A stretch of DNA of 64,000 nucleotides, from NCBI RefSeq assembly GCF_016839145.1, contig NZ_CP069302.1, positions 124,001 through 188,000 on the forward strand, in the 5' to 3' direction. The notes below the pieces were generated by a model that saw only the letters and a program-made list of their open reading frames with translations, had not been told where the DNA came from and ran no database searches. This stretch comes from Shinella sp. PSBB067. GTDB taxonomy: Bacteria; Pseudomonadota; Alphaproteobacteria; Rhizobiales; Rhizobiaceae. The position numbers and the translations under genes are program-made. Positions 29,846 through 33,717 of the stretch are shown here, one piece after another (within the stretch, counting starts at the first letter, position 1; each line of letters starts with the position of its first letter).

Positions 29846-31327
29846 TCAGGCCACATCGCCCATGCAGATATATTTCAGCTCCAGATAGTCGTCCGCGCCG
29901 TGGGCGGAGCCTTCGCGGCCGAGGCCGGACTGCTTGATGCCGCCGAAGGGGGCGGCTTCGGAGGAGATGAGGCCGGTATTGACGCCGACCATGCCGTATT
30001 CGAGCGCTTCGGCCACCTTCCAGACCTTCTTGAGGTCGCCGGCGAAGAAATAGGCTGCGAGGCCGAATTCGGTGTCGTTGGCTTGTTCGATCACGTCCCC
30101 GACCGTGTCGAAGCGGAAGAGCGGAGCGACGGGGCCGAAGGTCTCTTCCCTCGCCACCGTCATGCCGCGCGCGACGCCCTTCAGCACCGTCGGCTGGAAG
30201 AAGGTGCCGTTGCCCTCGATGCGCTTGCCGCCGGCAAGGACCGTCGCGCCCTTGGAGACGGCGTCGGCGATATGGGCCTCGACCTTGGCGATGGCGGCCT
30301 CCTCGATCAGCGGGCCGATGGTCGTGCCCTTGTCGAAGCCGTTGCCGACGGAGAGCTCGGCGACCTTCTTCGCAAGCTTCTCGGCGAAGGCGTCATAGAC
30401 CCCCGACTGCACGTAGAGACGATTGGCGCACACGCAGGTCTGGCCGGCATTGCGGTATTTCGAGGCCATGGCGCCCTCGACGGCGGCGTCGAGATTGGCG
30501 TCGTCGAAGACGATGAAGGGCGCGTTGCCGCCGAGCTCCAGGCTGACCTTCTTGATCTGGTCGGAGCACTGGCGCATCAGGATGCGGCCGACTTCCGTCG
30601 AGCCGGTGAAGGAGATCTTCCGCACCTTCGGATTGAAGCACAGCTCCTTGCCGATGGCCGGGCCGTCCGTGCCGAGGATGACGTTGAAGACGCCGGCGGG
30701 GATGCCGGCCTTTTCCGCCAGCACGGCAAGTGCGATGGCCGAGAGCGGCGTCTGCTCGGCCGGCTTGGAAACCACCGTGCAGCCGACGGCGAGCGCCGGG
30801 GCGACCTTGCGGGCGATCATCGCGGCCGGGAAATTCCACGGCGTGATCGTGCCGACGACGCCGACCGGCTGCTTGATGACGAGCATCCGCTTGTCGACGG
30901 AGGGAGCGGGGATCGTCTCGCCGTTGATGCGCTTGGCCTCTTCCGCGTACCACTCGACATAGGAGGCGGCGTAGAGGATTTCGCCGCGCGCTTCCGGCAG
31001 GGGCTTGCCCATTTCGGCGGTGAGGATGGCGGCCAGTTCGTCGGCATTGGCGACGATCAGGTCGTTCCACTTGCGCAGCAGGATGCTGCGGTCCTTGGCG
31101 GGGCGGGCGGCCCATGCGCCTTGCGCCTTGTGGGCGGCGTCGATGGCGGCGGCGGTCTCGCTCGCGCCCATCTCGGGCAGCGTCGCCAGCTTTTCGCCGG
31201 TCGCGGGATTGAAGACATCGAAGGTCGCGGCGCCGTTGCCGCCGATCCAGTTGCCGTTGACATAGCCTGCATCGCGCAGGAAATCGGTCGACTTCAGGTG
31301 CCTGGTGAGAGCATCGTGGAAGGCCAT
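29846..31327 (-). CDS. gabD: Succinate-semialdehyde dehydrogenase (NADP-type)
   Basis: 493-residue aldehyde dehydrogenase oxidising succinate semialdehyde to succinate, the second step of GABA degradation. Catalytic residues: E264 in VSLELGG and C298 in NAGQTCVCANR, with the QTCVC motif typical of GabD; nucleotide-binding motifs TPWNFPAAM (about 162-170) and SFTGSTEVG (about 239-247). It follows gabT on the same strand after 95 bases that include a small CACCCGG/CCGGGTG hairpin (31360-31382). The ATG at 31327 has AAAGGA upstream; the longer frame is a shadow. Substrate assignment rests on family motifs and the gabT neighbour. Confidence 0.93.
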   Translation of the reverse strand: MAFHDALTRHLKSTDFLRDAGYVNGNWIGGNGAATFDVFNPATGEKLATLPEMGASETAAAIDAAHKAQGAWAARPAKDRSILLRKWNDLIVANADELAAILTAEMGKPLPEARGEILYAASYVEWYAEEAKRINGETIPAPSVDKRMLVIKQPVGVVGTITPWNFPAAMIARKVAPALAVGCTVVSKPAEQTPLSAIALAVLAEKAGIPAGVFNVILGTDGPAIGKELCFNPKVRKISFTGSTEVGRILMRQCSDQIKKVSLELGGNAPFIVFDDANLDAAVEGAMASKYRNAGQTCVCANRLYVQSGVYDAFAEKLAKKVAELSVGNGFDKGTTIGPLIEEAAIAKVEAHIADAVSKGATVLAGGKRIEGNGTFFQPTVLKGVARGMTVAREETFGPVAPLFRFDTVGDVIEQANDTEFGLAAYFFAGDLKKVWKVAEALEYGMVGVNTGLISSEAAPFGGIKQSGLGREGSAHGADDYLELKYICMGDVA

Positions 31328-31422
31328 GATTGCATTCCTTTCGGACAGGAAAGGCCGTTCACCCGGAGCCATGCCCCGGGTGTCGCCTTGGGAGGATGTG
31401 GTTCGTTCGCTTGCGGCGCCGA

Positions 31423-32700
31423 TCAGGCGCTGCGGGCCTCGACCATGGAGGCTTCGAGGATGTCGAGCGCTTCGGCGAAGACCTCGTCCTGGATGGTGAT
31501 CGGCGCGAGGAAGCGGATGACGTTGCCGTGCACGCCGCAGGTGAGCAGGATCAGGCCCTTGTCGAGGGCTTTCAGGCGCACCTTGTTGGCGAAGTCGGCG
31601 CTCGGCTGCTTCGTGGCGACGTCGTTGAACTCGACGGCGTTCATGAAGCCCGGGCCGCGGATGTCGACGATCTCGGGAACCTTGTCCTGCAGCGAGGCGA
31701 GGCGCTGCTTGAGGCGCGCACCGAGGTTCTCGGCGCGGTTGCACAGGTCCTCGTCCTTGATGACGTCGAGCACGGCATGGGCCGCCGCAACGCCGATCGG
31801 GCTGCCGGCATAGGTGCCGCCGAGGCCGCCGGGGCCGGGCGCGTCCATGATCTCGGCGCGGCCGGTGACGGCGGCGATCGGGAAGCCGCCGCCGAGACCC
31901 TTGGCCATGGTCATCAGGTCGGCCGCGATGCCGTAGTGCTCCATGGCGAACATCTTGCCGGTGCGGGCAAAGCCGGTCTGCACCTCGTCGGCGATGAGAA
32001 GGATGCCGTGCTGGTCGCAGATCTCGCGCAGCGCCTTCATGAAGGCGACCGGGACGGGATAGAAGCCGCCTTCGCCCTGCACCGGCTCGACGATGATCGC
32101 GGCGACGCGGTTCGGGTCGACATCGGCGGCGAAGAGCTTCTTCAGCACGTTCAGCGACTGCTCGACCGTCGTGCCATGGGCCTCGATCGGGAAGGGCGCG
32201 TGGAAGACGTCGCCCGGCATGGCGCCGAAGCCGACCTTGTAGGGCACGACCTTGCCGGTCAGCGCCATGCCCATGAAGGTACGGCCGTGGAAGCCGCCCG
32301 AAAAGGCGATGACGGCCTGGCGGCCGGTGGCGGCGCGGGCGATCTTCACGGCGTTCTCGACGGCTTCCGCGCCGGTCGTCACGAAGATCGTCTTCTTGGC
32401 GAAGTTGCCGGGGGTGATGGCGTTGAGGCGCTCGGCAAGCTCGACATAGTTCTCGTAAGGAACGACCTGGTGGCAGGTATGCGTGAAGCGGTCGAGCTGC
32501 TTCTTGACGGCCTCGATGACACGCGGATGGCGGTGGCCGGTGTTGACCACGGCGATGCCGGCGGCGAAATCGATGTAGCGGTTGCCTTCCTTGTCCCAGA
32601 TTTCCGCATTCTCCGCACGGTCGGCGTAGATCTGCGTGGTCATGCCGACGCCGCGGGAAATGGCGGCGTTCTTGCGGTCTGTCAGAGGCGTGGCGGTCAT
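31423..32700 (-). CDS. gabT: 4-aminobutyrate aminotransferase
   Basis: 425-residue class III PLP aminotransferase. It moves the amino group of GABA to 2-oxoglutarate, giving succinate semialdehyde. D238 (IADEVQTG) holds the pyridine nitrogen and K267 (MTMAKGLGGGFP) forms the Schiff base; the TGAEAVENAVKIAR and GGFHGRT motifs of the family are present. Its divergent neighbour is a MerR-XRE-cupin regulator, and two identical 18-bp repeats occupy the promoter. gabD follows in the same direction. Some close relatives use other omega-amino acids such as 5-aminovalerate or beta-alanine. Confidence 0.94.
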   Translation of the reverse strand: MTATPLTDRKNAAISRGVGMTTQIYADRAENAEIWDKEGNRYIDFAAGIAVVNTGHRHPRVIEAVKKQLDRFTHTCHQVVPYENYVELAERLNAITPGNFAKKTIFVTTGAEAVENAVKIARAATGRQAVIAFSGGFHGRTFMGMALTGKVVPYKVGFGAMPGDVFHAPFPIEAHGTTVEQSLNVLKKLFAADVDPNRVAAIIVEPVQGEGGFYPVPVAFMKALREICDQHGILLIADEVQTGFARTGKMFAMEHYGIAADLMTMAKGLGGGFPIAAVTGRAEIMDAPGPGGLGGTYAGSPIGVAAAHAVLDVIKDEDLCNRAENLGARLKQRLASLQDKVPEIVDIRGPGFMNAVEFNDVATKQPSADFANKVRLKALDKGLILLTCGVHGNVIRFLAPITIQDEVFAEALDILEASMVEARSA

Positions 32701-32749
32701 GGCGCTGTTCCTGGATCTGGAGGCTTCGTTTCGTCGGCTTGCATTAACT

Positions 32750-32800
32750 TACATTTTTTCTGCAAGACTTGTGTGGAATTCCTACATTTTTTCTGCAAGA
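32750..32800. promoter_or_regulatory. Two identical 18-bp direct repeats between gabT and its regulator
   Basis: TACATTTTTTCTGCAAGA occurs at 32750-32767 and again, perfectly, at 32783-32800; the 33-bp period is about three helical turns, placing both copies on the same DNA face. They sit about 50-100 bases upstream of gabT (start 32700) and about 100 bases upstream of the regulator (start 32902). AATGC-AATG-GCATT adjoins the second copy. This looks like a cooperative binding site of the divergent regulator. Confidence 0.75.
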
Positions 32801-32901
32801 ATGCAATGGCATTTTAAGAGCGCAATGCGACGGATTTCAAACCCGAGCGGCTGCTCCGGGGATGCTATAGAACGATCATACAGAATCAGGGATTTGGCGC
32901 G

Positions 32902-33717
32902 ATGGGTTCCGGGGAGCCGGTGCATTACAAGGTGGCGGAGGCCGCGCGGCTTGCCGGCGTTTCGGCCTCCACGCTGAGGCTCTGGGAGGCGCAGGGTCTC
33001 GTCGTGCCCGGCCGCTCGGAGACGGGGCATCGCCAGTACAGCGCCGACGACGTGGTGCGATTGAAGCGCATCGCCTGGTATCGCACGGAGCGGGGCCTCA
33101 ACCCGGCCGCTATCCGCGAGGCGCTGGAGGCAGAAGAGCCTGCCGCCGACAGCAGCGCATCCGAGGGCGATGCGCCGCAGGGCATAGGCCGCAAGCTGCG
33201 CAGCCTGCGCCACGCGGCAGGCAGGACGCTGGAGCAGGTCGCCGGCGACATCGGCATCGCGACGTCGGTGCTTTCCACCTTCGAGCGCACCTCGCAGGGC
33301 GTGACCTTCCGCGTGCTGCACGATCTCGCCGACTATTACGGCACGACCGTCTCCAAGCTTTCCGGCGAGGAGGAAGAGGACAACCGCGCCGTCGTTAGGG
33401 CCGGGGAATGGAAGTTCTGGCCCGAGACATCGCCCGGCGTCACCGTGCAGGTGCTGGCGGACGGGCGCAACATGATGGACTGCCACCGTTTCGTGCTCGC
33501 CCCCGGCGCCTCCAGCGACGGCGCCTACATGCATGACGGCGAGGAATTCGTGCATGTGCTTTCCGGCCAGGTGGAAATCGTGCTCGACGGCCACGAGTTC
33601 CACGATCTCGGCCCCGGCGACAGCCTCTATTTCGAAAGCTGCCGCCGCCATGCCTGGCGCAACCGCCACGACGGGGAGACGATCCTGATCTGGATCAACA
33701 CGCCCCCGACGTTCTGA
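32902..33717 (+). CDS. MerR-XRE-cupin fusion transcriptional regulator
   Basis: 271-residue fusion of three modules. Residues 7-75 form a MerR-type winged helix (YKVAEAARLAGVSASTLRLWEAQGLV, then GHRQYSADDVVRLKRI). Residues 93-152 are a Xre-type helix-turn-helix (GRKLRSLRHAAGRTLEQVAGDIGIATSVLSTFERTSQ). Residues about 185-265 are a small cupin (GAYMHDGEEFVHVLSGQVEIVLDG, then GPGDSLYFES and HAWRN). XRE-cupin regulators of the PuuR kind control polyamine and GABA catabolism; the additional MerR domain is less usual. Divergence from gabT plus the 18-bp direct repeats suggest it controls gabTD in response to a small amine or acid. The inducer is not known. Confidence 0.87.
   Translation: MGSGEPVHYKVAEAARLAGVSASTLRLWEAQGLVVPGRSETGHRQYSADDVVRLKRIAWYRTERGLNPAAIREALEAEEPAADSSASEGDAPQGIGRKLRSLRHAAGRTLEQVAGDIGIATSVLSTFERTSQGVTFRVLHDLADYYGTTVSKLSGEEEEDNRAVVRAGEWKFWPETSPGVTVQVLADGRNMMDCHRFVLAPGASSDGAYMHDGEEFVHVLSGQVEIVLDGHEFHDLGPGDSLYFESCRRHAWRNRHDGETILIWINTPPTF

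Follow-up and report, generated by a model that had tools for sequence, protein, structure and literature searches.

A MerR-XRE-cupin regulator and conserved palindromes at the gabT locus of Shinella sp. PSBB067 and its relatives

The window analysed here, a 64,000-nucleotide stretch of DNA from Shinella sp. PSBB067, contains a regulator open reading frame that is divergent from gabT, which is followed on its own strand by a succinate-semialdehyde dehydrogenase gene. As two identical repeats lie between the regulator and gabT, this locus raises the question of whether the regulator acts on gabT through these repeats, and how a chain carrying two helix-turn-helix modules would do so. In our view, the features described below are probably best explained by a dedicated local repressor of gabTD, of the XRE-cupin type, with GABA or a related metabolite as the presumed inducer. 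The genes and domains concerned are as follows.

32902..33717, forward strand: MerR-XRE-cupin regulator, 271 aa (open reading frame and Pfam domains)
32926..33132, forward strand: MerR_1 winged-helix module, residues 9-77 (PF13411, 71.6 bits, cutoff 21.6)
33187..33351, forward strand: XRE/HTH_31 module, residues 96-150 (PF13560, 57.5 bits, cutoff 27)
33487..33696, forward strand: Cupin_2 sensor domain, residues 196-265 (PF07883, 64.2 bits, cutoff 27.2)
31423..32700, reverse strand: gabT, 4-aminobutyrate--2-oxoglutarate transaminase, presumed target (NF005692, 858.6 bits, cutoff 724)
29846..31330, reverse strand: gabD, succinate-semialdehyde dehydrogenase, presumed co-transcribed (TIGR01780, 729.8 bits, cutoff 646)

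The gabD start was placed at an internal ATG within a longer listed open reading frame, and the protein does not reach the cutoff of the corresponding equivalog family, NF008415 (828).

Regulator protein and gene neighbourhood

The original prediction described a 271-aa protein joining MerR, XRE and cupin domains, and each of the three is indeed found above its Pfam cutoff. PF00376 exceeds its cutoff in addition to PF13411, as expected of a MerR winged helix-turn-helix, and PF13560 followed by a C-terminal PF07883 is the arrangement of an XRE-cupin protein. Together with the gabT neighbour, these domains support the earlier description of a PuuR-like XRE-cupin regulator adjoining gabT. In an alignment of 35 sequences, cupin residues Y209, H211, G213, E214, E215, H250 and N254 are invariant, as are four residues in the MerR module (S23, T24, R26 and W28), which indicates that the latter module is no relic.

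An AlphaFold2 model of the monomer, built from the same number of aligned sequences, shows three separate domains (mean pLDDT 80.3, pTM 0.48). In MerR family members proper, an antiparallel dimerisation helix follows the helix-turn-helix. Such a helix is absent from the predicted monomer of the Shinella regulator, in which helix 68-78 closes the MerR fold and a disordered linker (residues 79-92, pLDDT < 50) comes after it, so that the module is not predicted to form a dimerisation helix itself. A match between the XRE-cupin part and the PuuR equivalog model NF007408 counts for a repressor, although the score of 51.7 bits is below the cutoff of 211. The matches listed include 25 NCBIfam families, all below their own cutoffs, and the aminotransferase-like sensor domain of MocR/GabR proteins is not among the 14 Pfam families listed for the regulator. 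Because the PuuR cutoff is not reached and no MerR dimerisation helix is predicted, the protein is most aptly classed among the XRE-cupin regulators, as a variant extended at the N-terminus by a MerR module. Foldseek ranks 1y9q first, a Vibrio cholerae regulator of the HTH_3 family (TM 0.70 when normalised to target length and 0.49 to query length), and the nearest named protein relative is from Shinella zoogloeoides PQ7 (95%). The Shinella genome itself holds one full-length match to the regulator and five others that are partial and weak.

In a set of 73 loci, in which some genomes are represented twice and from which a 52-residue MerR-only match (L079) was excluded, the regulator adjoins gabT divergently in 71 (exceptions L013 and L028), and this linkage counts for a repressor of gabTD. 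At L019/H15 (NZ_CP044012.1), the regulator was matched in pieces only, as if frameshifted or misassembled, and both operators there score 17/17.

Palindromic sites between gabT and the regulator

The 18-mer TACATTTTTTCTGCAAGA occurs in two identical copies, at 32750-32767 and 32783-32800, which are 33 bp apart from start to start, so that the repeat pair originally noted in the gabT-regulator intergenic region stands as described. With as many as three mismatches allowed, the window contains no further match, and none of 100 shuffles yielded two. Each copy encloses a 17-bp imperfect palindrome that reads YTRCA-GAAAAAA-TRYAR (5-7-5) on the gabT strand, giving two putative operators.

32782..32798, reverse strand: upstream (regulator-side) putative operator, TTGCA-GAAAAAA-TGTAG on the gabT strand, imperfect palindrome
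32749..32765, reverse strand: downstream (gabT-side) putative operator, TTGCA-GAAAAAA-TGTAA on the gabT strand, imperfect palindrome

As every repeat contains a complete palindrome, the pair represents two whole operators and not two half-sites. In order to follow these sites through relatives, a site was defined as at least 15 of the 17 consensus positions, and 66 distinct intergenic regions were collected by removing identical sequences from 74 (71 of the 73 loci plus L088, L100 and L101). All 66 regions contain a site compared to 4 of 3300 dinucleotide shuffles; since the consensus was learned from the same regions, this comparison shows the strength of the signal and is not an independent prediction. 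No site at this threshold was found on the opposite strand in any of the 66.

These regions hold 89 sites, in which positions 2, 4, 5, 6, 8, 10, 13 and 16 are invariant and the degeneracy is symmetric in the pairs Y1/R17 and R3/Y15. Position 14 is variable (A in 11/89), while its mirror position 4 is constant. Perfectly complementary arms occur in 37 sites, the window's two not included, and the imperfection of the other 52 counts against the repressor reading, as does the one-way orientation of the asymmetric spacer, which is unexpected for a purely symmetric XRE dimer site.

Two sites are present in 23 of the 66 regions, 33 bp apart in 16 and 32 bp apart in 7, a distance of three helical turns that agrees with the in-phase spacing proposed earlier. 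The remaining 43 regions have one site, showing that the pair is not essential. This, along with the full dyad in each repeat, led us to reject the proposal that the two modules of one protomer read two half-sites. Identical 18-mer copies are confined to the window's genome (1/23 two-site regions), and the conserved feature is therefore the palindrome inside each copy; the suggested test of whether the 18-bp repeat is conserved came out positive for this palindrome (66/66 regions) and negative for perfect identity. Three of the single-site regions hold an extra 14/17 match, at 31 bp in L100 and at 36 bp in L070 and L072, and degenerate second palindromes are seen in L011 and L012. Mapped onto a 68-protein tree, the two-site state corresponds to one change (support 90/83, under the tool's mark for strong support), the single-upstream state to four and the single-downstream state to three. 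In 11 single-site Ensifer/Sinorhizobium regions, TTGCA lies at exactly -41, where a lost upstream site would be flanked, and the right arm TGTAC of that site is in place in 11/11; these remnants suggest decay of the upstream site in that group. Beside the upstream site of the window, at about 32801-32817, lies an AT-rich stretch resembling TTGCAAATCAAATTTGGTGATC. It is clearer in Ensifer and Rhizobium loci and is alike in the two groups despite the decayed adjoining site in Ensifer.

With start codons extrapolated from alignments, 22-95 nt separate the gabT start from the end of its nearest site, and 50-497 nt lie between the regulator start and the site closest to it. These distances point to gabT as the target in most loci, while loci with a short distance to the regulator may also be autoregulated. 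In eight loci of the Rhizobium group (L015, L049, L052, L053, L057, L060, L064 and L065), a small gene separates the gabT-side operator from the regulator; the one copy tested, from L053, is a RelB antitoxin by Pfam (61.9 bits). The sites remain with gabT rather than with the regulator in all eight, which counts for repression of gabTD. The idea that the sites serve mainly for autoregulation is weakened by these eight loci and by L013, where the best score is 11/17.

The original prediction had called for a search of relatives, and the architecture and the site do prove to be conserved together, in the 66 intergenic regions and across whole genomes. Among 151 genomes of the family, the regulator (called at E <= 1e-40) is present in 23 and the exact pattern YTRYATTTTTTCTGYAR in 19, with 17 in common. 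The exact motif is thus found in 17/23 regulator-positive compared to 2/128 regulator-negative genomes (Fisher p = 1.3e-15, kinship ignored), and vertical inheritance accounts for part of this co-occurrence. Both genomes with the motif and no regulator have many chance matches (37 in G111 and 69 in G126 at up to two mismatches, 11 and 47 for a control pattern); G111 has no gabT match at E <= 1e-100, and the exact site in G126 is far from gabT. The exact motif is missing from six genomes that do encode the regulator. Four of these carry one-base variants (L011, L012, L016 and L026), and a fifth, G105, has a regulator 40% identical and no gabT match at E <= 1e-100.

The sixth, G106, has a spacer variant instead. 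Its regulator (L013) has no adjoining gabT, with a best score of 11/17 in 600 upstream bases, and TTGCAGTAATTCTGCAA lies about 140 bases upstream of gabT on a contig other than that of the regulator. This is one of three TTGCA-N7-TGCAA palindromes in the 6.5-Mb genome, a rarity that counts for a repressor acting at gabT; its different spacer and its scores of 13/17 on the gabT strand and 14 on the other count against. Upstream of gabT in the regulator-negative genomes G073, G126 and G047, the best scores are 13, 13 and 12, and by this measure the G106 palindrome is hardly above regulator-free regions, distinguished by its intact arms alone. Before the 58% identical gabT of G047 (L120), the end of a cupin-like protein was read on the same strand, possibly another regulator.

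The chance that the palindromes belong to some other gabT-controlling factor, linked to the regulator by gene neighbourhood only, is very small in our estimation. Vertical inheritance of both neighbourhood and site would produce such a picture, but the exact motif is missing from 126/128 regulator-negative genomes, no site above 13/17 precedes gabT in the three genomes of this kind that were examined, and a palindrome is present at the unlinked gabT of G106. Nor was a wide regulon seen: the window's two sites are the only exact matches in the Shinella genome, where sites with two mismatches number 7 compared to 2 for a control pattern.

Candidate gabT promoter and mode of control

The placement of the operators relative to the gabT promoter depends on two candidate elements.

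32801..32806, reverse strand: putative gabT -35 box, TTGCAT (TTG at two expected offsets in 62/66 regions)
32779..32784, reverse strand: putative gabT -10 box, TAGGAA, after a 16-bp spacer (TA at the first two positions in 57/65 regions)

In 51 regions, TTG starts 8 bases ahead of the upstream site. Another 11 have it in the corresponding position and in 3 it is displaced by one base, leaving only L018 without it; as six offsets were allowed, single cases may be due to chance. The constancy of its position suggests an overlap between the upstream operator and the gabT promoter, in which case the downstream operator would span roughly +8 to +24 of gabT. The TA count is high in part because the -10 box overlaps an operator arm. 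A consensus promoter scan preferred another place (32840-32811, 10/12 match), and a weight-matrix scan found no single preferred place across the 66 regions, both of which count against this arrangement. In S. meliloti, the sigma-70 -10 box is described as poorly conserved, with one promoter group keeping TTG only (excerpt of PMC3616915), so that a weak gabT -10 box is no strong objection.

If the regulator is a repressor, its XRE-cupin part would mediate dimerisation, and the paired XRE domains would dock on the 17-bp palindrome (5-bp arms, 7-bp A-tract spacer), which would overlap the core promoter of gabT. The Shinella/Mycoplana lineage would add another dimer, bound three turns of the helix further downstream and close to the start of transcription. 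Binding of GABA or a neighbouring metabolite (succinic semialdehyde or a putrescine-derived compound) by the cupin would then release the DNA, such that GABA catabolism would be switched on when substrate is present, and the MerR module may supply an extra contact to DNA or polymerase. Prell et al. (2002) reportedly found gabT to be induced by GABA.

In MerR family systems proper, the dyad lies within a promoter spacer of 19-20 bp. An activator of this type, whose MerR module would bind a dyad between the -35 and -10 boxes and untwist an over-long spacer to activate gabT, is distinctly unlikely here. The dyad does sit between TTGCAW and an AT-rich stretch, and a 20-bp spacer gives a good -10 box in some regions, namely TTGCCA-20-TAATAT in L059 and TTGCAA-20-TAAAAT in L025. 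However, the model has the disordered linker where the MerR dimerisation helix belongs, the 16-bp spacer is the one that yields TA in 57/65 regions, and the 11 single-site regions noted above retain TTGCA and the right arm with the rest of the intervening dyad lost. We give a somewhat better, though still low, chance to a composite operator, in which each chain would offer two kinds of contact, its XRE domain (as a dimer) to the palindrome and its MerR module to the flanking TTGCAW, forming a polarised complex of about 25 bp. Such a complex could still repress, with TTGCAW doubling as the gabT -35 box, and, if real, would explain the single orientation of a symmetric site and let one protein cover both an operator and a promoter element. 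TTG at the two expected offsets in 62/66 regions, the lack of any opposite-strand site in the 66 and the strong conservation of MerR-module residues all speak for it, but a -35 box explains TTGCAW equally well, and 0/23 downstream sites of pairs have TTG there.

Known systems and distribution of relatives

The presumed repressor of gabTD resembles PauR, PsdR and ErfA of Pseudomonas and PuuR of E. coli in its XRE domain and C-terminal cupin (excerpt of PMC7901475). Those proteins exert local control of amine and amino-acid catabolism from a palindrome at a core promoter, and the Pseudomonas XRE-cupin regulators are described there as local repressors with palindromic sites mostly in core promoters; the core-promoter overlap at gabT is a placement we infer. 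Unlike them, the Shinella regulator carries an additional MerR winged-helix module, about 70 aa long, at its N-terminus, and the one-way orientation of its palindromes differs from the Pseudomonas picture as excerpted, while the other measured features agree. The nearest MerR-family regulators by profile or PDB sequence are HspR, CarH, TipA and GlnR/TnrA, which share the N-terminal MerR_1 fold; unlike these, the Shinella protein is modelled without a dimerisation helix. Regulators named GabR elsewhere are likewise linked to control of GABA utilisation, but their architectures differ, being of the MocR type in Bacillus subtilis, the sigma-54 type in B. thuringiensis and the PucR type in Corynebacterium according to the abstracts listed, in contrast to the MerR-XRE-cupin chain described here.

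The suggestion of an undescribed regulator class holds in a weak sense at most. The triple architecture is not described in the literature matches listed from keyword searches (titles and abstract beginnings), but relatives are already in databases, annotated as 'MerR family transcriptional regulator', and gabDTR is mentioned for R. leguminosarum; the Shinella protein is a testable variant of a known repressor type, and not wholly new. In pea bacteroids of R. leguminosarum, gabD, gabT and gabR are up about 80-, 65- and 7-fold (excerpt of PMC6421345), which counts for the repressor interpretation. This gabR is named along with gabD and gabT, as at the Shinella locus, and may belong to the same family as the Shinella regulator; a protein with 76% identity (P0036) is present in that species. 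The S. meliloti 1021 plasmid pSymB has a 96.6% identical DNA match to the S. meliloti 4H41 locus (NC_003078, 936535-937663), and a defined regulator and operator would make the control of GABA catabolism testable in this model symbiont. SMb21187 was rejected as the S. meliloti regulator gene, being given as LacI family (excerpt of PMC11387232).

Within the genus, the intergenic DNA as a whole was matched in 21/21 genomes searched, the window's own included. At the order level, 27/249 genomes match the regulator at E <= 1e-20, with a full-chain match in 12 (own genome counted), and 8/299 match it at the phylum level. Sites extend to a different family of the same order (CTACATTTTTTCTGTAG, L088) and to a genome related by class only (TTGCAGTTTTCCTGCAA, L101). 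In one genome (L089, G240), a 46% identical MerR-XRE-cupin protein was read as divergent from an apparent ABC-transporter solute-binding protein gene, not gabT.

Finally, a chain with two helix-turn-helix modules lends itself well to studying what an XRE-cupin switch gains from a second DNA-binding module, and some relatives of this chain have an enzyme domain fused to them. Seven of the 12 full-chain order-level matches (L090-L096) have open frames of 629-721 codons, and in the three tested by Pfam (L091, L092 and L095) the MerR-XRE-cupin part is followed by a proline racemase domain (PF05544). By reading, the second-cysteine motif DRSPCGTG is kept in L090 and L091, and DRSPGV(T/A)(G/A) stands in its place in L092-L096, which suggests that a decayed enzyme may be used as a sensor there.
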